A DNA stretch of 64,000 nt from the NCBI RefSeq assembly GCF_900115225.1, contig NZ_FOVR01000006.1, positions 124,001-188,000 of the forward strand, in the 5' to 3' direction. Positions 45,027 to 58,236 of this stretch are shown here, piece after piece. The position numbers and the translations under genes were made by a program. Below the pieces are notes generated by a model. That model was not told the DNA's origin, did no database searches, and worked only from the letters and a program-made list of their open reading frames with translations. The DNA comes from Cohaesibacter marisflavi (GTDB lineage Bacteria > Pseudomonadota > Alphaproteobacteria > Rhizobiales > Cohaesibacteraceae). The stretch's first letter is position 1, and every line of letters begins with the position of its first letter.

Positions 45027-46732
<1,706 letters not shown>

Positions 46733-48451
46733 ATGACGGACCATGCAGCCTTTAGGGGCTTGGGAATTGCCTTCAGACATCTGTCTGCGGCAATCCTGCT
46801 GACTGCACTAGCATCCATATCAGGACCGGTGATTGGATGGAGCAACGCCAATGCTTCCCCCACCGCCGCAAACAAAACAGAAAGCACAAATCAATCTGCC
46901 GAAAAGCAGATCACGGGCAAGAAGCCCGGTGAAACCGCTGACCACAGCAAATTTGAAATTCTGCAACAGGATTTCAAAAGTGGCCCCGAGGTCACCAAGG
47001 CCTGCCTCTCCTGCCACACCGAAGCGGCCACTCAGGTGCATGATTCCATTCACTGGAAATGGGAATATGACAACGAGAAAACCGGCCAGAAGCTCGGCAA
47101 GCGTTATGTCATCAATGCCTTTTGCGGCAATGTCGCCTCCAACGAGGCCCGTTGCACCTCTTGCCATGCAGGGTATGGCTGGAAAGACATGCGCGAAAAT
47201 CCCCCTTCCGCACCGGAAGCGGTGGATTGCCTCGTCTGCCATGCAGACACGCAATATTACAAGAAGTTCCCCACCAAGGCCGGTCTGCCGGTCACCGAAC
47301 CAACCATGTTTGGTGGCAAGCCCTTCAAGGTCTCCAACCTGATTGAAGCGGCCCAGTCCGTCAGTCTGCCCCAGCGCGACAATTGCGGCTCCTGCCATTA
47401 TTATGGCGGCGGCGGCGATGGCGTCAAACATGGTGATATCGACAGTTCGCTGGACAATCCATCCGTTGATCTGGACGTACATATGGCGGCTGATGGCGGC
47501 AACATGGCCTGCTCAGCCTGCCATTCCGGCTCTGGCCATGTCTGGCCCGGCTCTCGCTATGACATGGATGCCAAACCGCAGGCTCGCGACGAAGAAGGCA
47601 AGAAGCTTCCTTCCTTCGCCATGCGCCGGATGAATGAAACCGCTTCCTGTGAGAGCTGCCACACAGACGCTCCTCATCAGGGCAAGACGCTGGAAGCCAT
47701 CAAGCTGAACAACCACACCGATACGGTCGCCTGCCAGACCTGTCACATTCCCGAATTCGCACGCGGTGGCGTTGCCACCAAGATGCTCTGGGACTGGTCA
47801 ACGGCAGGCAAGCTGAAAGACGGCAAACCATTCGCGATCAAGGATGACAAGGGCCACCCCAGCTACGATTCCAAGAAGGGTGACTTCATCTATGAAGAGA
47901 ATGTCCAGCCGACCTACAGCTGGTTCAACGGCAAGGTCAACTATGTCACCGACGAGGATAGGCTTGATACGACCCAACCGGTGGTGCTGAACGCTCTTGG
48001 CGGCAGCGCGGAAGACGAGAATGCCCGCATCTGGCCCTTCAAGCTGATGCATACCAAACAACCCATCGACGCTGAAAACAAGAAGCTGGTCTATATGCAT
48101 CTGTTCGGCAAGGACGCCAATGCCTTCTGGAAGAATTTCGATTGGGCGAAGGCCATTCAGGGCGGTCAGGACTATATGGGCAAGGACTATTCGGGCAAAT
48201 TCGAGTTTATCGAAACCCGCATGTGGTGGCCCATCACTCACATGGTTGCCCCCGCGAACAAGGCCGTCCAGTGTGACGAATGCCACGTCAAGGGTGGACG
48301 CCTTGAGAATATAGAAGGGGTCTATATTCCGGGGCGCGACGACCTTCCTCTGATCAGCTGGCTGGGCTACGGCCTGATCATCCTGACCATTCTGGGCGTT
48401 GCTATCCACACCATCTTCCGCTTCGCCACGCGCAAACAGCGCAATCATTAA
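46733..48451 (+). CDS. Octaheme c-type cytochrome, tetrathionate reductase (OTR) family, copy 1
   Basis: A 572-residue exported cytochrome. A signal or anchor segment spans about residues 12-36. Eight CxxCH heme sites follow: CLSCH (91-95), CTSCH (141-145), CLVCH (166-170), CGSCH (218-222), CSACH (260-264), CESCH (306-310), CQTCH (334-338) and CDECH near the end. A carboxyl-terminal membrane helix (LGYGLIILTILGVAIHTIF) anchors it facing the periplasm. Shewanella OTR reduces tetrathionate, nitrite and hydroxylamine in vitro; its in vivo substrate is uncertain. A cytochrome b gene follows after 13 bases. A second copy lies 1 kb downstream. Confidence 0.92.
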   Translation: MTDHAAFRGLGIAFRHLSAAILLTALASISGPVIGWSNANASPTAANKTESTNQSAEKQITGKKPGETADHSKFEILQQDFKSGPEVTKACLSCHTEAATQVHDSIHWKWEYDNEKTGQKLGKRYVINAFCGNVASNEARCTSCHAGYGWKDMRENPPSAPEAVDCLVCHADTQYYKKFPTKAGLPVTEPTMFGGKPFKVSNLIEAAQSVSLPQRDNCGSCHYYGGGGDGVKHGDIDSSLDNPSVDLDVHMAADGGNMACSACHSGSGHVWPGSRYDMDAKPQARDEEGKKLPSFAMRRMNETASCESCHTDAPHQGKTLEAIKLNNHTDTVACQTCHIPEFARGGVATKMLWDWSTAGKLKDGKPFAIKDDKGHPSYDSKKGDFIYEENVQPTYSWFNGKVNYVTDEDRLDTTQPVVLNALGGSAEDENARIWPFKLMHTKQPIDAENKKLVYMHLFGKDANAFWKNFDWAKAIQGGQDYMGKDYSGKFEFIETRMWWPITHMVAPANKAVQCDECHVKGGRLENIEGVYIPGRDDLPLISWLGYGLIILTILGVAIHTIFRFATRKQRNH

Positions 48452-48464
48452 GGAGGACAGACTC

Positions 48465-49181
48465 ATGACGGACATCTCTTCTGCCTCTGGCCCTGCGGCA
48501 AGCAAAGCCAAAGAGGCAAAATCCAAGGTCTTTCATCGCAAGGTGAAAAACTACAGCCGATATGAACGCTTCTGGCACTGGTCGCAGGCGATCCTCATTT
48601 TCGTGCTGGCCTTCTCCGGCTTTACGGTGCATGGAACGATCCGCTTCATTCCCTTCCACTCTGCGGTCATGATGCATGACATCGCTGCCTTTGTTCTGAT
48701 CTTCCTGTGGCTGTTTACAGCCTTCTGGACCTTCACCACAGGACAGTGGCGTCACTTTGTGCCAACCAACGCAGGGCTATGGGAAGTCATCATGCATTAT
48801 CTCGTTGGCATGATGCGCGGCCAGCCCCATCCCTATAAACGGACTCTCAGCCGCAAGCAGAACCCGCTGCAGTCCTTTGCATACTTCTCCATCATGACGT
48901 TGGTCGGGCCACTCCTCTGGCTCTCCGGGCTTGCCTATATGTTTTATAGCTTCTGGGCTGGGAACTCCGGCAACCACGAGATCTTCAGCCTCGTGGTGCT
49001 GCTCCACCTCATAGGAGCGTTCCTGATGGTCGCTTTCGTGATTGGTCATATCTATATGGTCACCACGGGCAAAACCTTGATCCACTATACCAAGGCCATG
49101 ATCACCGGCTTTGAGGATATGGAACTGACCGAAGCAGAAGTCACCTACCTGGAAGCACATGAACCAGACCGCATCAAATAG
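48465..49181 (+). CDS. Cytochrome b/b6-domain membrane subunit, copy 1
   Basis: A 238-residue protein with about four membrane helices. It matches the gamma-subunit/b561-type family (RYERFWHWSQAILIFVLAFS with His38; HGTIRF; HDIAAFVLIFLWLFTAFW with His71; VVLLHLIGAFLMVAFVIGHI). His residues in helices should bind two b hemes that take electrons from quinol. AGGAGG precedes the ATG, 13 bases after the octaheme stop, so both are translated from one message. Together they look like a quinol-to-periplasm electron path. A terminator follows. Confidence 0.9.
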   Translation: MTDISSASGPAASKAKEAKSKVFHRKVKNYSRYERFWHWSQAILIFVLAFSGFTVHGTIRFIPFHSAVMMHDIAAFVLIFLWLFTAFWTFTTGQWRHFVPTNAGLWEVIMHYLVGMMRGQPHPYKRTLSRKQNPLQSFAYFSIMTLVGPLLWLSGLAYMFYSFWAGNSGNHEIFSLVVLLHLIGAFLMVAFVIGHIYMVTTGKTLIHYTKAMITGFEDMELTEAEVTYLEAHEPDRIK

Positions 49182-49206
49182 CGGCGTAGCACCGAGCAAA
49201 CTTTCA

Positions 49207-49238
49207 AAGGCCGTGGGCGCACCCTGCGGCCTTTTCTT
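49207..49238 (+). terminator. Terminator between the two cytochrome modules
   Basis: AAGGCCG (49207-49213) pairs with CGGCCTT (49227-49233) and is followed by TTCTT. It lies 25 bases past copy 1 of the cytochrome b gene, so the second module needs its own promoter in the next 200 bases. Confidence 0.75.
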
Positions 49239-49444
49239 ACATGCGCAAAAATACCTACAACTTACCGCGCGTGACAACATGTCTCATCTACTTAATTCGA
49301 ATATCCAAAATAAGCATTTTATAGTCTTGTTTAAAGAGACCTGTCGGAACCGGTCCGGAGCCGATTCCGCATTTTACGACAACCAGATCAGTTTCTGCCG
49401 GGAAAACTGATCTTCTTGCCTTTTGCATTTGTTCGGAGGACCAC

Positions 49445-51199
49445 ATGGCGAACTTTGCATCTAAGGGCAGACGGCCGCATATCAAAGCCCTCAGAGGCCT
49501 TGTTATGGCCGTGTCTGCCCTTTCTTTTGTATCATTGCTATCCCTGTCCAACATCGAAGCCCTTGCGGCATCCGGACAGGAAACACTCCCCCATTCCCCC
49601 GTTAATGCAGATGCCAAGGCGTCAGCATTGCAACTGTCCGGCAAACCAGCTGGCGGCACGGCAGACCATTCCAAGTTTGAAATTCTGCAACAGGATTTCA
49701 AATCCGGCCCTGAGGTCACCAAGGCTTGCCTCTCCTGCCACACGGAAGCAGCCGATCAGGTGCAGCACACCCTGCACTGGAAATGGGAAACCAAGAATGA
49801 GGCCACTGGCCAGACCCTCGGCAAGCGCACCGTCATCAACAGCTTTTGCGGCAATGTCGCCTCAAACGAGCCGCGCTGCACATCCTGCCATGCAGGGTAT
49901 GGCTGGGAGGATATGCGCCAGCCTCCCCCTTCCGACCCCGAAGCAGTCGATTGCCTCGTCTGTCATGCGGATACAGCGCTTTACAAGAAATTCCCCACCA
50001 AGGCCGGTCACCCGCTTTATGAACCGACCCCGTGGAACGGCAAGATCGTCCAGCCGCCAAATCTCAGCATGGCAGCTCAGTCGGTCACCAATCCGCAACG
50101 TGAGAATTGCGGCTCCTGCCACTATTATGGCGGCGGCGGTGACGGCGTCAAACATGGGGATCTGGACAGTTCCCTGAACCATCCCGATGCTGCCCTTGAC
50201 GTGCATATGAATGCAGACGGCCTCAACATGGCCTGCACAGCCTGCCATTCAGGCTCCGGCCACCAATGGCCCGGCTCGCGCTACAGCACCGAGGCAAAAC
50301 CCACTACAATCACCAACGATGGTGAGGAAACCAAGACCGCCAAAATCCGCTCCCTCGATCAGCATGCCGGCCTGATGGAACCGTCCGCCTCCTGCGAGAG
50401 CTGCCATTCGGCGCGCCCGCATGATGGGAATGACATCATGGGCATCAAGCTCAATGATCATACCGACACGGTCGCCTGCCAGACCTGCCATGTGCCCGAA
50501 TTCGCTCGAGGGGGTGTTGCCACCAAAACCCTTTGGGACTGGTCAACGGCTGGCAAGTTGAAGGATGGCAAGCCCTACAAGGTCATGGATGAGCATGGCC
50601 ATCCCAGCTACATGTCCGAGAAGGGCGATTTTGAATATGCCGAGAATGTCCAGCCATTCTATTCATGGTTCAATGGCGAGACGACATGGACCCTGCTCGA
50701 CGACACAATCGACCCGACCAAGGTTGTCGAGATCAACGCCCTTGGCGGATCAGCCACCGATGGCAAATCCCGCATCTGGCCATTCAAACGCATGCATTCG
50801 CGTCAGCCATATGACAAGGCAAACAATCAGCTGGTCTATAACCATGTCTTCGGCAAGGACGACACGGCTCTCTGGACCAATTTCGACTGGGACAAATCGG
50901 TGCCTGCTGCCATGGAGTTCATCGGCAAGGACTTCTCCGGCGAGTTGGGCTTTGTCGATACCTACATGTATTGGCCGATCACCCATATGGTCGCCCCCAA
51001 AGAACAGGCTGTGCGCTGCACCGAATGCCACGCCAAGGAAGGACGGCTCGACGGCATCACCGGAATCTACATGCCGGGACGTGACAATTTCAAATGGCTC
51101 GACTGGATTGGTTATGCCGCCTTCGGGCTGACTTTGCTGGGCGTTCTGATCCACGCCTTGCTGCGCATCATCTTTCGCAATCGCAAGACACAGGCTTGA
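49445..51199 (+). CDS. Octaheme c-type cytochrome, tetrathionate reductase family, copy 2
   Basis: A 584-residue paralogue of the octaheme gene at 46,733. It has the same eight heme sites in order (CLSCH, CTSCH, CLVCH, CGSCH, CTACH, CESCH, CQTCH, CTECH), an amino-terminal signal (VMAVSALSFVSLLSLS) and a carboxyl-terminal helix (IGYAAFGLTLLGVLIHALLR). Coding DNA is still close: a 27-base run at 49,676-49,702 is identical to 46,952-46,978. An insert of about 13 residues before the sixth heme (TNDGEETKTAKIRSLDQHAG) distinguishes it. GGAGGACC precedes the ATG. Confidence 0.92.
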   Translation: MANFASKGRRPHIKALRGLVMAVSALSFVSLLSLSNIEALAASGQETLPHSPVNADAKASALQLSGKPAGGTADHSKFEILQQDFKSGPEVTKACLSCHTEAADQVQHTLHWKWETKNEATGQTLGKRTVINSFCGNVASNEPRCTSCHAGYGWEDMRQPPPSDPEAVDCLVCHADTALYKKFPTKAGHPLYEPTPWNGKIVQPPNLSMAAQSVTNPQRENCGSCHYYGGGGDGVKHGDLDSSLNHPDAALDVHMNADGLNMACTACHSGSGHQWPGSRYSTEAKPTTITNDGEETKTAKIRSLDQHAGLMEPSASCESCHSARPHDGNDIMGIKLNDHTDTVACQTCHVPEFARGGVATKTLWDWSTAGKLKDGKPYKVMDEHGHPSYMSEKGDFEYAENVQPFYSWFNGETTWTLLDDTIDPTKVVEINALGGSATDGKSRIWPFKRMHSRQPYDKANNQLVYNHVFGKDDTALWTNFDWDKSVPAAMEFIGKDFSGELGFVDTYMYWPITHMVAPKEQAVRCTECHAKEGRLDGITGIYMPGRDNFKWLDWIGYAAFGLTLLGVLIHALLRIIFRNRKTQA

Positions 51200-51211
51200 G
51201 GAGACATTATC

Positions 51212-51931
51212 ATGACTGACATACCGTCTTCTGCCCAATCAGAAGAATTGGCCAACAAGCCCGACGTCAAAAAGCGGGCCGTGAAAATCTATACGCGCTA
51301 TGAGCGTTTCTGGCATTGGTCCCAGGCCCTGCTGATCTTCATTCTGGCCTTTTCGGGCTTCAATCTGCACGGCTCACTCACGCTGGTACCTTTTCCGCTG
51401 GCGGTCATGGTCCACACCTATGCAGCCATTTTGTTGCTGCTCTTGTGGCTCTTCACCACCTTCTGGAACTTCACCACAGGGCAGTGGCGCCACTATCTGC
51501 CCCAGAACAAGGGACTGTTCGCGGTGATCAAATTCTATGCCTATGGCATCATCACCGGCGCCCCGCACCCCTACTCGAAGAGCCTTAATCGCAAGCAGAA
51601 TGCCCTGCAGTCTTTGGCCTACCTGACCTTCATGGTCATCATCGGCCCGGCCCTGTGGCTCTCGGGCATTGCCTATCTGCTCTACGGCCTTTGGGAAAAC
51701 ATCCAGAATGGCCAGCAGATCTTCACTCTGGTGGCCTTTGTGCATACGGCAGCAGCCTTCGCGATGATCACCTTTGTCGTCATCCATGTTTATATGACGA
51801 CCACAGGCAAAACGGTGTTCCACTATATCAAGACCATGATCACCGGCTACGAGAAGATCGAACTGACACCCGCAGAAGAAGCCTATCTGGAAGAGCAGCA
51901 GCCGGGCATGCTGAAAAAAGACACCCAATAG
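51212..51931 (+). CDS. Cytochrome b/b6-domain membrane subunit, copy 2
   Basis: A 239-residue paralogue of the cytochrome b at 48,465. The same His-bearing helices are present (RYERFWHWSQALLIFILAFS; HTYAAILLLLLWLFTTFWNF; VHTAAAFAMITFVVIHVYMT), and it ends with TGKTVFHYIKTMITGYEKIE. GAGGAGAC precedes the ATG, 12 bases after the octaheme stop. The pair repeats the gene order, spacing and size of the first module, so the whole two-gene unit was duplicated. A terminator follows. Confidence 0.9.
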   Translation: MTDIPSSAQSEELANKPDVKKRAVKIYTRYERFWHWSQALLIFILAFSGFNLHGSLTLVPFPLAVMVHTYAAILLLLLWLFTTFWNFTTGQWRHYLPQNKGLFAVIKFYAYGIITGAPHPYSKSLNRKQNALQSLAYLTFMVIIGPALWLSGIAYLLYGLWENIQNGQQIFTLVAFVHTAAAFAMITFVVIHVYMTTTGKTVFHYIKTMITGYEKIELTPAEEAYLEEQQPGMLKKDTQ

Positions 51932-51960
51932 CCAAAGCAAAAACCCAAGGCAAAATAACC

Positions 51961-51998
51961 AAAGAAAAAGCCGCAGCGAATGCCGCGGCTTTTTCTTT
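51961..51998. terminator. Bidirectional terminator after second cytochrome module
   Basis: AAAGAAAAAGCCGC (51961-51974) pairs with GCGGCTTTTTCTTT (51985-51998). T runs on both strands serve the cytochrome b gene and the convergent DUF2892 gene. Confidence 0.85.
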
Positions 51999-52043
51999 GG
52001 ATTGAGTGATCAAGGCATCGAGCGATGCCTCGTCCTTGTTGCA

Positions 52044-52247
52044 TCATTCAAAGGCTGTGCCGGGCTTGACGCCGATTTTCTTCAAAATCATGGCGGCCGG
52101 ACAAAAACCGGTAAAAGCAGACTGCATCATGTTGGCGCCAACGAAGACCGTCAGCCAGATAAACAGCGGATGAACATAGACCGTCAGAACGACGGACAGC
52201 AGGACCATGAAGCCTGCAAATGCGAGAATGGAACGATCGAGCGACAT
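52044..52247 (-). CDS. DUF2892 (YgaP-like) membrane protein
   Basis: A 67-residue protein starting MSLDRSILAFAGFMVLLSVV. Two membrane segments flank a short loop, and the carboxyl end carries TGFCPAAMILKKIGVKPG, the conserved 'G.CP....L...G' motif of DUF2892. In YgaP the same domain is fused to a rhodanese that handles sulfane sulfur; here it stands alone. A sulfur link is therefore tentative, though it suits the nearby tetrathionate-reductase-type and sulfide:quinone genes. GGAG precedes the ATG. Confidence 0.88.
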   Translation of the reverse strand: MSLDRSILAFAGFMVLLSVVLTVYVHPLFIWLTVFVGANMMQSAFTGFCPAAMILKKIGVKPGTAFE

Positions 52248-52503
52248 TTTAGAACTCCATTAAATTAGAACTTGCGAATATACATAACAAACAACGTCCA
52301 TAAGGTAAAGAGGAAAGATCAGGGAAGCTGCTGAGGCAAGCTGTCGCGCCCATCCAAAGGTCTCATAGCCATCACATACAATTGTACCAAGCGCCCCGAA
52401 ATTGTCACAATATTGATCCCTTTGCGCCCTCTTTCACGCAAATCCGGGCCGCAATCCCGTGAGACAGTATCATTGGACCAACCCTGCCACGGGATTTAAA
52501 ACA

Positions 52504-55041
52504 ATGACATTGCCTGACACCAACGCAAATGACCGGACAAGCGACAGGAAAAGAAAGCGCCATACAATAGAACTGAGCGCCTATGCCGAACGCAAAAGTC
52601 CCATTTCAAGAATTTTTAAGCTCTGGATCGGAGCCTATGCATTTGCGATCTGTGCAGCTCTCGTCATAGCCTTCGGAAAGCCAGCCCATTCGGCCCCTTC
52701 ACAAATATCTACCGTGCAGGACACCCCCACGGCGCAGCCACTGCTTCTCACCCCCGATGACATGCAATCGGGCGGCTTGTTGTTCAAGGCCAAGGAAGCG
52801 GGCAAATATATCGAGGCGCCGAAGGTGGCGACCGACATCAAGATCGATGTCACCGGACCGATCGCCCGCGCTGTGGTTACGCAGAAATTCCTCAACCCGA
52901 GCGACGCCTGGGTCGAGGGCATCTATGTTTTCCCCCTGCCAGACACCGCCGCCGTGGATGAATTGCGAATGAAAATCGGCGAGCGCATGATCGAAGGCCA
53001 GATCAAGCCCAAAGAAGAAGCCCGCCAGATTTACGAAACCGCCAAACAGCAAGGCAAGAAAGCCAGCCTGCTGGAGCAGCATCGCCCCAATCTCTTCACA
53101 AACGCTGTCGCCAATATAGGTCCGAGGGATTCCATTACCATCCAGATCGAGTATCAGCAGAGCATTCCGCGCAAGGATGAAGAATTCTCCCTGCGTGTGC
53201 CGCTGGTCGTCGCGCCGCGTTACAATCCCCTCGACAATCCCCTCGACAAGCCCCTCAAGCCCGTCATTGATCTCAAGCCCAACCAGTCCGACAATGCGAG
53301 CGGCTGGGGTACGACAGATCCGGTTCCTGATCGCGAGGCGATCACCGCCCCCGTGCTGGACCCGAAAACAGAGGGCAAGAGCAATCCTGTTACACTCAGC
53401 ATCAAGCTGAAGGCCGGTTTCCCTCTCGATAATGTCGTCAGCCACTATCATGATGTGGTGGTAAAGCCCGAAGGCAGCGACACCATGACCCTCTCGCTAA
53501 AGGGTGAAGCCGTACCAGCCGACAAGGACTTCCTGCTCACATGGAGTGGCAAGCCAAGTGAAACGCCCAATCTTGGCCTCTTTACCCAGACCCTCAAAGA
53601 CGACCCCAACCAGCGGCAGACCGGCGATGGGCAAAGCAAGGACGCCAGAGATGAAAATGAGGAAGAGGAAAGCCTGCTGGAAAGCGAAGCAGAACAGTAT
53701 CTGCTGGCCTATATCACTCCACCTTACAAACTGGCGACCGAGCTTAAGGTACCCCCACGCGAAGTGATTTTCGTCATCGACCAATCTGGCTCCATGGATG
53801 GCCCCTCCATCCGGCAGGCACGCGAGAGCCTGATCGAAGCGCTGGGCCAGCTCAAGCCGGAAGACACCTTCCAGATCATCCGTTTCAACAATGACATGGC
53901 GCAGCTCTTCCCTTCGCCCCAACCGGCAGATAAAGAGCATATTGCCACCGCGCGCTATTGGGTGGCAGCAATTGAAGCAAACGGCGGCACGGAAATGTTG
54001 CCCGCCATGCAGGCCGCCCTAAAGGATCAAAATCCCGATTCACCGACCCTGCGTCAGGTTATTTTCCTCACCGACGGTGCCATCGGCAACGAGCGCCAGC
54101 TGTTTGAAACCGTCAAATCCGGCATGGGCCGCTCTCGCATCTTCACGGTCGGCATCGGATCTGCCCCGAACAGCTTCTTCATGTCCCGCGCAGCAGAAGT
54201 CGGACGCGGCACCTTCACCCAGATCGGCAATATCACCGAAGTGAAGAGCAAGATGGCAGAGCTTTTCACCCAGCTCACCACGCCAGTCGCCACCGACCTC
54301 AGCATCACCTTTGCTAACGGCAAGGATATCGAGGCCTCTCCGAGTGCGTTGCCAGATCTCTATAAGGGAGAGCCGGTTGTGGTTGCCTTCAAGGGCAAAG
54401 ATCTGGGTCAGGAACTGACCCTTACAGGCCGTTTTGACAACCAGCCATGGTCTATGACTGTCGACATCACCAAGGCTGCCCCATCCGATGCAATCGATAA
54501 ATTGTGGGCCCGAGGCAAGATCCGCCAGTTGGAGAATGAACGCCTGCTTGCGACAGATCCGGCGTCTTTCGACAAGGGGATCGAAGCCCTCGGACTCACA
54601 CATCATCTGGTCACGCGCCTGACGAGCCTCGTCGCCGTCGACGTCACCCCATCACGCCCGCAAAATCAGACATTGGACAGCAAGAAGGTTCCACTGAATC
54701 TCCCCGATGGCTGGAAAATGGAAAGCGTGTTTGGTGAGAGTGCTCCGATGATGGACACCGGCATTGATGCTGCCATTGCCCCGGCACCTCAGGCAGGCAA
54801 CCGCACGGCCGGTCTGATGACGCTTGCTCCCGCCGCCATGAAGGCCATGAAAGTGGCTTCAGCCCCCCAGAGCGGCCCCGCTCAGGTTGCCCTTGCCCCG
54901 ACCGGCGGCAACCAGATTCTTCTCCCCAAGACCGCAACGCGGTCGGATCTTCTCATCCTCCTGGGTATCGCCCTGCTGACCCTGGCCGGTGTCCTGATGG
55001 CATGGATACAATGGCGGAAGATCCGACCGGAGTTGCGCTAG
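52504..55041 (+). CDS. Marine proteobacterial sortase target protein (VIT and VWA domains, LPKTA signal)
   Basis: An 845-residue protein. A long charged leader precedes a signal segment (WIGAYAFAICAALVIAF). A VIT domain (VVTQKFLNPSDAWVEGIYVF; KEEARQIYETAKQQGKKASL) and a von Willebrand A domain with MIDAS (FVIDQSGSMDG; LTDGAIGNE) follow. The end carries a sorting signal: LPKTA, a hydrophobic helix and a positive tail (WRKIRPELR). This domain set is the known single substrate of class-GN sortases in marine proteobacteria. The protein is expected at the cell envelope, perhaps in adhesion. A GTG 15 codons upstream is an alternative start. The sortase follows after 90 bases. Confidence 0.92.
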   Translation: MTLPDTNANDRTSDRKRKRHTIELSAYAERKSPISRIFKLWIGAYAFAICAALVIAFGKPAHSAPSQISTVQDTPTAQPLLLTPDDMQSGGLLFKAKEAGKYIEAPKVATDIKIDVTGPIARAVVTQKFLNPSDAWVEGIYVFPLPDTAAVDELRMKIGERMIEGQIKPKEEARQIYETAKQQGKKASLLEQHRPNLFTNAVANIGPRDSITIQIEYQQSIPRKDEEFSLRVPLVVAPRYNPLDNPLDKPLKPVIDLKPNQSDNASGWGTTDPVPDREAITAPVLDPKTEGKSNPVTLSIKLKAGFPLDNVVSHYHDVVVKPEGSDTMTLSLKGEAVPADKDFLLTWSGKPSETPNLGLFTQTLKDDPNQRQTGDGQSKDARDENEEEESLLESEAEQYLLAYITPPYKLATELKVPPREVIFVIDQSGSMDGPSIRQARESLIEALGQLKPEDTFQIIRFNNDMAQLFPSPQPADKEHIATARYWVAAIEANGGTEMLPAMQAALKDQNPDSPTLRQVIFLTDGAIGNERQLFETVKSGMGRSRIFTVGIGSAPNSFFMSRAAEVGRGTFTQIGNITEVKSKMAELFTQLTTPVATDLSITFANGKDIEASPSALPDLYKGEPVVVAFKGKDLGQELTLTGRFDNQPWSMTVDITKAAPSDAIDKLWARGKIRQLENERLLATDPASFDKGIEALGLTHHLVTRLTSLVAVDVTPSRPQNQTLDSKKVPLNLPDGWKMESVFGESAPMMDTGIDAAIAPAPQAGNRTAGLMTLAPAAMKAMKVASAPQSGPAQVALAPTGGNQILLPKTATRSDLLILLGIALLTLAGVLMAWIQWRKIRPELR

Positions 55042-55131
55042 GTCTGTCCTTAGAGTAGCAGCCTGCGCGTGGGCTTCGGTCCACGCGCCTTTTTCTCACA
55101 TTCTCAAAAAAACGCACACACCAAGGACAGT

Positions 55132-55746
55132 ATGGAAAAACCAGCCCCCAGCCCCACGCAGTTTAAAATAGGCGCAGTCAGCGCCATGGCTCTTGGACTG
55201 CTGGGGCTGGGGTTACTCATTTGGGGAAGCTGGATCCCCGTCAAGGCCGAACTCGCTCAATATCTGCTGGAGAGGGCGTGGCAGCAGAGCAAGAGCGATG
55301 GCGCGCCCCACAAGGCATGGCCATGGGCAGACAGCTGGCCAGTTGCCAAACTGACCATCCCGGACCTTGATTTTGAAGCGATCATTCTCAAGGAATCCGG
55401 CGGCGAAGGCCTCGCCTTCGGTCCGGTTCTGCTAGATCAGTCCGCCCCGCTGGGCCAACGGGGAACGAGCGTCATTTCGGCGCACAGAGATACCCATTTC
55501 AAGGCTCTTGCCAATTTGCAAGTTGGCATGCAGGTGTCGCTGGAGCCAATGCACGGCCCGACTTTGCATTACACCATCGATGCCAGCCGCATCGCCCGCT
55601 GGGATCAATCCGGCCTTGTCAGGAATACGCTGAGTTCTTCACTCGTCCTCTCTTCCTGCTGGCCATTTGATGGCCTTACCAGCGGCCCCTTGCGCTTCAT
55701 CGCCGAGGCCACGCCAGACCGTAAAACAGCTCAGTTGATCCGCTAA
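55132..55746 (+). CDS. Class-GN sortase
   Basis: A 204-residue transpeptidase. An amino-terminal membrane anchor (VSAMALGLLGLGLLIWGSWI) precedes the catalytic domain. Catalytic His lies in VISAHRDTHF, the nucleophile Cys in LVLSSCWPFDG and Arg in GPLRFIAEA. It cuts the LPKTA signal of the preceding protein and joins it to an unknown acceptor, since Gram-negative peptidoglycan linkage has not been shown for this class. The two genes form one unit. AAGGACAG precedes the ATG. Confidence 0.92.
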   Translation: MEKPAPSPTQFKIGAVSAMALGLLGLGLLIWGSWIPVKAELAQYLLERAWQQSKSDGAPHKAWPWADSWPVAKLTIPDLDFEAIILKESGGEGLAFGPVLLDQSAPLGQRGTSVISAHRDTHFKALANLQVGMQVSLEPMHGPTLHYTIDASRIARWDQSGLVRNTLSSSLVLSSCWPFDGLTSGPLRFIAEATPDRKTAQLIR

Positions 55747-56964: not shown

Positions 56965-58236
56965 TCAGTTCTTGATCTTGGCGATGTCCAGCAGACTCAA
57001 AACGGCCTTTTCATAATATGGCTCGGTCTCGCCCTTACGGATTTTGCGCAGGAAATATTTCTCAAAGGCGATCTTGGCCAGATGCACCCATTTACCCTGC
57101 CCTGAATAGTTGGTGTTGCGCGGCGGAATCTGCGGCATGGCCACAAAGGCCAGCCCTGAATCGCCAAAGTCGGCAAGACAGATCGCGTTCCAGGTCGCTT
57201 CATGGGTCGGCTCTTTATCCGCCAGAATTTCACCCAGATTCTTGGCCGATGCCGTGACCATAGATTCGATCATGTAACCGGTTTTCGGCACACCCACCGG
57301 CACCGGGGTCGCCTCATAAGGCGGAATGGCGATGCAAACGCCGATGCCGAAAATATTGGGATATTTCGGATTGCGCTGATGTTTGTCGACAATGACAAAG
57401 CCGCGCGGATTGACCAGCCCTTCGATACCTCGCAGCGCTGGAATACCGCGGAAAGCTGGCAGCATCATGGAATGCTTGAAGGGCAACTCATGCTTTTTCT
57501 TCTCGTTCCCGTCAGCGTCAACCTCGGTGACATACATCATGCCTTCTTCGATCTTGTCGACCTTGGCATTGGTGATCCATTTCACGGTCCGGTCGCGCAT
57601 GGCCGATTCCAGCATGCCCTTGGTGTCACCCACGCCGCCAAGGCCCAGGTGGCCCACATAAGGCTCCGAGGTCACAAAAGTCATGGGCACCTTGTCACGG
57701 ATTTTGCGCTTGCGCAGATCGGTGTCGAAAATCATGGCTGTTTCATAGGCGGGGCCATAGCAGGATGCCCCCTGCACGGCACCCACCACAATCGGGCCAG
57801 GATCAGCACAGAAGGCTTCCCATTTCTCATGCCCTGCGGTCGCGTGGTCAACATCGCAAACAGAAATGGTGTTGCCCTCTGGGCCCAAGCCCTCGATCTC
57901 GTCAAAGGCAAGCTCAGGACCCGTTGCGATCACCAGATAATCATAGGAAACCGATGAGCCATCTTCCAGACCGACAGTGTTATTCTCAGGATCAAGGCTC
58001 GTGGCGGCGGAGCAGATGAAGTCCACCTTATTCTTTGGCAAAACCGTTGCCAGATCGAGTGTGATGTCCTTCTTCTTGCGCCATCCCACGGCGACCCATG
58101 GATTGGATGGTGTGAACTGGAAAAACGGCTTGTTTGAAATCACGGTCACCTTACCAGCCTTCGACAGTTGCTGGCGGATCTCATAAGCTGCTGAAAGGCC
58201 GCCCAGGCCTCCTCCCAAAACCACTACATGCGTCAT
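56965..58236 (-). CDS. sqr: Sulfide:quinone oxidoreductase-type flavoprotein
   Basis: A 423-residue FAD protein. The Rossmann motif VVVLGGGLGGLSAAYEIRQQ starts it and FQFTPSNPWVAVGWRKKKDI follows. Diagnostic SQR segments are QGASCYGPAYE (redox Cys about residue 161), EPYVGHLGLGGVGDTKGML, NPKYPNIFGIGVCIAIPPYE and PVPVGVPKTGYMIESM. It would oxidise sulfide to sulfane sulfur and reduce quinone at the inner membrane. Which Cys forms the second redox partner (SVCD or GVCI) cannot be fixed by eye. GGGAGAG precedes the ATG. It is divergent from uvrB. Confidence 0.85.
   Translation of the reverse strand: MTHVVVLGGGLGGLSAAYEIRQQLSKAGKVTVISNKPFFQFTPSNPWVAVGWRKKKDITLDLATVLPKNKVDFICSAATSLDPENNTVGLEDGSSVSYDYLVIATGPELAFDEIEGLGPEGNTISVCDVDHATAGHEKWEAFCADPGPIVVGAVQGASCYGPAYETAMIFDTDLRKRKIRDKVPMTFVTSEPYVGHLGLGGVGDTKGMLESAMRDRTVKWITNAKVDKIEEGMMYVTEVDADGNEKKKHELPFKHSMMLPAFRGIPALRGIEGLVNPRGFVIVDKHQRNPKYPNIFGIGVCIAIPPYEATPVPVGVPKTGYMIESMVTASAKNLGEILADKEPTHEATWNAICLADFGDSGLAFVAMPQIPPRNTNYSGQGKWVHLAKIAFEKYFLRKIRKGETEPYYEKAVLSLLDIAKIKN

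Follow-up and report, generated by a model that had tools for sequence, protein, structure and literature searches.

The well-studied octaheme c-type cytochrome OTR (octaheme tetrathionate reductase) of Shewanella (structure 1SP3) is described as a soluble periplasmic protein (PMC6449678) that binds STC, a carrier itself fed by CymA (PMC4484225). Pairings of an OTR with a cytochrome b have also been described. In Beggiatoaceae, BOGUAY_2386, an OTR of 582 residues, is followed downstream by a thiosulfate reductase-type cytochrome b (PMC6449678), and the Ignavibacteriae Ch128a cluster combines Otr with a cytochrome b561 and transmembrane helices and has been proposed to accept electrons at the cytoplasmic membrane (PMC7509429). 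Here we analyse a stretch of 64,000 nucleotides from Cohaesibacter marisflavi (assembly GCF_900115225.1, contig NZ_FOVR01000006.1, positions 124,001 to 188,000 of the forward strand; hereafter the window) that carries two complete OTR–cytochrome b units, the latter protein of b561 type, head to tail at 46733-51931.

Unlike Shewanella OTR, the window's octaheme proteins possess a C-terminal membrane helix, have a dedicated cytochrome b each and come in two tandem units. The two-gene, membrane-linked layout is the same as that of Ch128a, which is a single cluster from another phylum and is described without duplication (PMC7509429). BOGUAY_2386 is reported in one copy and is followed by further thiosulfate/polysulfide reductase genes, none of which lie beside the window's units (PMC6449678). 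A preliminary description of the locus had treated the paired, membrane-anchored layout as not known from Shewanella OTR; as a layout it is not new, since it was already in print (PMC7509429, PMC6449678), and it is the rule among the loci examined here. Side-by-side doubling was seen only in the genus Cohaesibacter, whereas the unit as such occurs widely and was known before. We consider it probable that the two units encode membrane respiratory complexes that were tandem-duplicated in the Cohaesibacter ancestor, with copy 1 an optional isoenzyme. The four genes are:

46733-48451, + strand: OTR1, octaheme c-type cytochrome, copy 1 (572 residues; TIGR04315 611.1 bits; 1SP3 E 5e-100)
48465-49181, + strand: cytochrome b1 (238 residues; PF01292 90.6 bits; conserved His38, His71, His181 and His195)
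49445-51199, + strand: OTR2, octaheme c-type cytochrome, copy 2 (584 residues; TIGR04315 609.9 bits)
51212-51931, + strand: cytochrome b2 (239 residues; PF01292 86.5 bits; conserved His35, His68, His178 and His192)

All four genes are intact, and the gap between OTR and cytochrome b measures 13 bases in unit 1 and 12 in unit 2, in agreement with the spacing of 12-13 bases first reported. The same holds for the 16 CxxCH motifs, all present and identical in order in both copies, and for the C-terminal membrane helix on both octaheme proteins. The N-terminus of OTR1 resembles a signal peptide by eye. Copy 2 had been credited with an additional segment of about 13 residues ahead of heme six, which is really 7 residues long: the stretch between hemes 5 and 6 measures 46 in copy 1 but 53 in copy 2, every other heme spacing being equal. 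The paralogues are 61% identical in OTR (567 codons) and 55% identical in cytochrome b (235 codons). A 27-base identical run starting at 46952 and 49676, which had been offered as a sign of common origin, is real but says little alone and sits in a conserved coding block. Gene conversion as the source of this run was not supported, since third-position identities between paralogues were much alike within and between genomes in most of the intervals compared, with a modest within-genome excess in a few (e.g. 0.61 versus 0.48 and 0.71 versus 0.64) and no clear sign of recent conversion.

The case for duplication rests on the OTR trees. In a careful tree of 23 Cohaesibacter rows and 7 outgroups, both copies fell inside a genus clade (support 97/99), within which copy 1 formed a clade of its own (100/100) on a long stem (1.01). 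A quick tree of 78 rows agreed, with a Cohaesibacter-only clade that holds both copies at a support of 100. Both halves of the broken copy 1 of genome G011, the short or partial genes of loci L053, L055 and L105, and L004, which lies on the same contig as G015, were left out of the OTR trees. In a cytochrome b tree (24 genus rows and 8 outgroup rows), copy 1 likewise formed a clade (100/100; stem 2.47), and the genus held together in the best tree. The copies are thus adjacent members of one lineage-restricted OTR clade, in line with the duplication proposed in the preliminary description, and do not occupy the distant clades that would have pointed to separate acquisition; the cytochrome b tree agrees weakly. 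A species tree built from two neighbouring genes of 16 genomes showed two main lineages of the genus, and both copies occur in each: in lineage one in G000 (the window's own genome), G001, G002, G004, G007 and G014, and in lineage two in G016, with copy 1 also in G008. If the two-gene tree is right, the duplication therefore predates the common ancestor of both main lineages.

A genus-specific lengthening of the heme 5-6 segment is a second mark of the common origin of the copies. Among the 77 rows with exactly eight motifs, the spacing is 46 in all 8 copy 1 rows, 53 in 14 rows (copy 2 of the seven two-copy genomes plus the genes of G003, G006, G011, G012, G013, G015 and G017) and 50 in G010; every row from outside the genus falls within 27-39. 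The spacing of 53 in G017 points to copy 2 as the identity of its single gene. Judged from these sequence comparisons, the whole unit was duplicated in tandem before the sampled Cohaesibacter diverged from one another.

OTR was found in 16 of the 18 genus genomes searched, the two without it being 64% and 90% complete. Two intact copies are present in seven genomes (G000, G001, G002, G004, G007, G014 and G016), G011 has an intact copy 2 and a copy 1 split over two frames (possibly by sequencing error), and eight genomes have a single copy. Among the latter, G008 retains copy 1 alone, copy 2 is the one present in G003, G006 and G013, and the OTR copy of G012 stands at a different genome position. 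In G003, a match to window positions 46336-46469 is followed by 46 unmatched bases and then by a match to 49178-49444, the region 5' of copy 2 (89% identical), a pattern which implies that the whole of unit 1 was deleted and its 3' flank left behind. A remnant resembling 46711-46803 (77%, E 1e-13), that is, the start of copy 1, precedes the deletion in G013. By our count on synteny, the OTR tree and the species tree, copy 1 was lost four times (G003, G013, G006 and G015) and frame-broken once (G011), and copy 2 was lost once (G008); loss in G010/G017 was left out of this tally. The repeated loss of copy 1 shows that it is dispensable.

The search of the window's genome revealed no OTR gene beyond these two, and no second OTR gene occurred in 105 loci outside the genus, which were covered with flanks of 1.5 to 8 kb, often ended by contig ends. 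Across the phylum, OTR was present in 45 of 398 genomes, and the other nine among these that had two or three genes carried them on different contigs or far apart; only the best four candidates per genome were scored and many assemblies are drafts, so more copies may exist. Within the class, 3 of 385 genomes carry OTR, the window's genome included. The closest named relative in the search was Cohaesibacter haloalkalitolerans (L003), with 89% identity to OTR1. We found no report of a tandem OTR duplication in the open-licence papers searched.

The non-coding DNA around the units holds three candidate control elements:

49206-49234, + strand: hairpin, probable terminator 3' of unit 1 (-19 kcal/mol, z -2.5; moderate)
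49265-49345, + strand: non-coding block upstream of copy 2, candidate control region (conserved in most of 10 aligned genus genomes)
51959-52000, no strand assigned: strong hairpin terminator 3' of unit 2, possibly serving both strands (-29.8 kcal/mol, z -5.7)

Each unit had been credited with its own terminator. Hairpins do follow both, the one after unit 1 being only moderate and that after unit 2 much stronger. Upstream of their start codons, unit 1 and unit 2 have no more than the final 21 bases in common. No FNR box with fewer than two mismatches was found 5' of the window's units. In two other genus genomes, FNR-like boxes lie upstream of copy 1: an exact one at 233 bases in G016 (L090) and a one-mismatch one at 224 bases in G008 (L099).

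Pairwise between-species ratios of nonsynonymous to synonymous change (dN/dS) ranged from 0.02 to 0.18 over the four genes, values that are approximate, as some starts were taken as longer reading frames. Between paralogues within a genome, dN is 0.32-0.39 and synonymous sites are near saturation. On these figures, both copies look to be under purifying selection. Over six genomes, 60 columns are fixed differently between the copies, 56 as substitutions and 4 as gap columns. Cytochrome b1 evolved faster than b2 with four of five outgroups (e.g. 53 versus 14 unique changes with outgroup G031a). The separate hairpins, distinct upstream regions, ancient divergence and purifying selection together suggest two jobs for the copies, and the repeated loss of copy 1 suggests that the second job is optional. 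Copy 2 is the form usually retained; copy 1 would be an optional isoenzyme that has diverged, with an upstream region to itself and a cytochrome b that has evolved faster. We regard conditional specialisation of the copies as more likely than pure redundancy.

The chief competing explanation is that the two copies are redundant, copy 1 merely decaying and adding dosage at most. This would account for the four losses and the frame break of copy 1 set against a single loss of copy 2, and we consider it possible though doubtful. Where copy 1 is intact, however, it is under purifying selection comparable to that on copy 2, it keeps all conserved columns of the family alignment while differing from copy 2 at the 60 fixed columns, and in G008 it survives alone. 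Cohaesibacter amounts to a natural experiment, with both copies, copy 1 only, copy 2 only and a recent deletion represented, so that the roles of the isoenzymes are directly testable.

According to PMC12285233, the active-site heme of the Shewanella enzyme is ligated by a lysine from outside the CxxCH motif. Both window proteins match TIGR04315 over profile positions 1-440 of 440 (E about 1e-183), above the curated cut-off of 375 bits, and each has eight CxxCH heme motifs. OTR1 residues 75-525 align with 1SP3, which places the proteins in the same family over some 450 residues; the Shewanella protein also has eight CxxCH motifs and an invariant lysine at position 153. Lys153, which we take to be the ligating lysine, and Cys64 of 1SP3 align with Lys232 and Cys131 of OTR1, equivalent to Lys236 and Cys135 of OTR2. 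The residue aligned with Lys153 is lysine in 79 of 79 rows, both copies included, and at each of the 104 columns that reach at least 95% conservation among these rows both copies have the consensus residue. Both copies carry the predicted axial lysine ligand of the catalytic heme, and OTR1 and OTR2 would be expected to act as tetrathionate, nitrite or hydroxylamine reductases.

Both cytochromes b exceed the PF01292 (Ni_hydr_CYTB) cut-off of 30.1 bits and contain four transmembrane histidines. These were each conserved in 64-66 of the 66 rows counted (of 75; nine rows of at least 330 residues were left out) and are likely heme ligands. The best match of b1 and b2 was the thiosulfate reductase cytochrome B model, below its cut-off (119.5 and 119.8 versus 204 bits), and the b2 sequence found no match among solved structures at E up to 1. 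A quinol dehydrogenase role is proposed for them on the grounds of family and gene context.

To place this arrangement among relatives, we compared 126 OTR genes with at least 7 heme motifs, all of different sequence and with repeated loci dropped; the genomes are often related and the counts not independent. Frames with fewer than 7 motifs (L087 twice, L053 and L055) were excluded, as were fragments below 150 bits, L105 among them, while L101 and L142, with nine CxxCH motifs, were counted as helix-bearing. For 116 helix-bearing genes the downstream DNA was readable: in 111 of them an adjacent cytochrome b begins within some 250 bases, in 4 it is fused to the OTR and in 1 there is none; 3 more helix-bearing genes stop at a contig end. 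None of the 7 OTR genes without a C-terminal helix has an adjacent cytochrome b. Both window copies combine the helix with an adjacent PF01292 protein and belong with the membrane-bound form. L041 is a natural OTR–cytochrome b fusion of 740 residues, and L135, L136 and L137 join OTR, cytochrome b and a receiver domain in one protein of 811 (incomplete) to 950 residues; Pfam was run on L041, L135 and L136, and L137 was judged by its sequence. Since membrane-bound OTR prevails among the examined loci and the soluble Shewanella enzyme stands out as exceptional, most OTRs probably receive their electrons from a cytochrome b and not by a CymA-type route. The C-terminal helix contains a histidine, His559 in OTR1 and His570 in OTR2, found in 76 of 76 aligned helix-bearing rows. 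Because cytochrome b has four conserved histidines of its own, the helix histidine is probably not required as a ligand for its two hemes, and our guess is that it acts near the inner heme or the quinone site.

A receiver-like C-terminal tail was found on the OTR-linked cytochrome b of 18 loci from 14 genomes of the phylum (L135, L136, L137, L129, L132, L134, L143-L149, L151-L154 and L160), all six on which Pfam was run (L132, L134, L135, L136, L144 and L149) being over the cut-off. Four Bacteroidota/Chlorobiota loci (L042, L043, L047 and L051) have two PAS domains on cytochrome b, Pfam having been run on L042. The same components are arranged differently in L052, L054, L140 and L157: the OTR is soluble, and the gene after it encodes a second, large multiheme protein that has several CxxCH motifs, a membrane helix and a fused cytochrome b, the last shown by Pfam for L052 and L157. 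We found no paper on receiver or PAS fusions of OTR-linked cytochrome b in the open-licence literature. These receiver/PAS and second multiheme arrangements widen the picture and leave the window's own proteins unaffected; together with the helix histidine, the fusions offer testable leads on coupling to the membrane and possibly on signalling. A bolder view would treat OTR–cytochrome b as a modular transmembrane redox conduit used for respiration and, through the receiver/PAS fusions, for cytoplasmic signalling, Cohaesibacter copy 1 having moved to a second job with another quinone, acceptor or direction. We find this speculative and, in so extended a form, unlikely.

Returning to respiratory complexes, we consider it most likely that the units are quinol:tetrathionate/nitrite/hydroxylamine reductases in which cytochrome b is the quinol dehydrogenase. 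Cytochrome b, with four transmembrane helices and probably two hemes b, would oxidise quinol in the membrane. Electrons would then pass to the periplasmic octaheme OTR, which is tethered by the C-terminal helix that follows soon after heme eight. From heme to heme they would reach heme two, the catalytic one with a lysine ligand, which would reduce tetrathionate, or nitrite or hydroxylamine. The working principle is similar to that of NrfHA, in which a membrane quinol dehydrogenase feeds a periplasmic multiheme reductase, with the difference that the window's membrane partner is a cytochrome b and not a NapC/NrfH multiheme protein. No NapC/NrfH-family protein scored over the cut-off in the window's genome, the one weak match being OTR1 itself. 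Since nearly every membrane-anchored OTR also has a cytochrome b, the simplest reading is that cytochrome b acts as quinol dehydrogenase. The helix starts some 20-25 residues past the heme eight motif, so heme eight should be nearest the membrane. In PMC4484225, positive surface regions are reported near hemes II and VIII, and Shewanella STC is reported to receive electrons from CymA and to interact with OTR; the positive region at heme VIII would fit electron entry there.

As to substrate, a purified OTR relative reduced tetrathionate at 93 µmol/min/mg and reduced nitrite too (PMC6449678). The window's genome encodes NarG (2174 bits), whereas neither NrfA nor a NapA over the cut-off was found in it, which makes nitrite a further possible substrate. 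In some other loci, the genes around OTR point to sulfur. In L043, OTR is preceded by genes for a PhsA-like enzyme, an iron-sulfur protein, an NrfD-like protein and a thiosulfate-transporter-like protein, none of which reaches its model cut-off; PF04143 sulphur transport genes stand near OTR in L030, L035 and L054, and rhodanese domains in L043 and L054. By clustering, a PF04143-like gene was present in 7 of 57 compared loci, most loci being without one. Several neighbour-gene clusters were set aside, as they look like reverse-strand reading frames in GC-rich DNA. The window's only sulfur-linked hint is the adjoining membrane protein gene:

52044-52247, - strand: YgaP-like transmembrane protein (PF11127, 50.4 bits), beside the OTR module

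This gene is kept next to the OTR module in 15 of 16 OTR-bearing genus genomes, an association only.

Several results weigh against duplicated respiratory reductases with an optional copy 1. On the side of history, the genus clade of the cytochrome b tree is weakly held (71/61), and the single copies are hard to assign: those of G010/G017 stand with copy 1 in the best tree (70/31) although copy 2 is compatible (approximately unbiased, AU, test, p 0.42), and those of G012/G015 group with copy 2 weakly (64/52), grouping with copy 1 being rejected (AU p 0.04). The rate asymmetry of OTR passes the 5% level with outgroup G031a only and depends on the outgroup. On the side of function, L150 has a helix-bearing OTR without an adjacent cytochrome b, no SoxB over the cut-off was found in the window's genome, and tetrathionate may not be the natural substrate, or the direction may be reversed. 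An AlphaFold model of the L041 fusion (mixed alignment, 62 sequences) was poor in its OTR half (mean predicted local distance difference test score 62.8, predicted template modelling score 0.46); prediction was better only for the cytochrome b portion and the helix that links the two, and the model was not used as support.

Reversed direction would mean that the complex is oxidative, with electrons from thiosulfate or hydroxylamine, for instance, ending up in the quinone pool. Reversibility is frequent among multiheme enzymes, and PF01292-family cytochromes b work in both directions in other complexes. We nevertheless judge this improbable: the absence of a SoxB over the cut-off counts against it too, OTR has a gene for a PhsA-like reductase in its vicinity in L043 and similar genes occur in L047, L051 and L101, and the activities reported for OTR relatives are reductive (PMC6449678, PMC4484225).

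The receiver-like domains (18 loci, 14 genomes) and paired PAS domains (4 loci) on relatives' cytochromes b could also be taken to mean that the unit is a redox sensor instead of, or besides, a respiratory enzyme. For the window this is distinctly improbable, as its cytochromes b end 23 and 27 residues past the PF01292 match without such a domain, and the active-site lysine and all conserved columns of OTR are kept. Horizontal acquisition of the second unit into the same place, which the patchy occurrence of OTR in the class and the weak hold of the cytochrome b tree on the genus (71/61) might suggest, is highly improbable and disfavoured by the OTR trees, given that both OTR copies lie inside a genus-only clade, that their heme 5-6 loop (46, 50 or 53) is longer than in every non-genus row and that synteny is conserved.

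Further observations concern the surroundings of OTR genes here and elsewhere. In the window, 52459-55746 encodes a marine sortase target protein (TIGR03788, 773 bits) and then a class GN sortase (TIGR03784, 174 bits), both over their cut-offs, and 56965-58236 (- strand) a pyridine nucleotide-disulfide oxidoreductase resembling sulfide:quinone reductases, far under the curated cut-off. In L101, from a genome of the same order (G033), OTR and cytochrome b lie beside a molybdopterin oxidoreductase gene. Cytochrome bd oxidase genes are commoner neighbours in Rhodocyclaceae-type loci, with subunit I in 10 loci and subunit II in 6 by clustering (Pfam on L046 and L048). OTR relatives of 54-55% identity are also carried by large Paracoccus plasmids (NZ_CP038196.1, CP038202.1, NZ_CP035287.1 and NZ_CP038206.1), and two of the five plasmid records matched by OTR are predicted to be conjugative.

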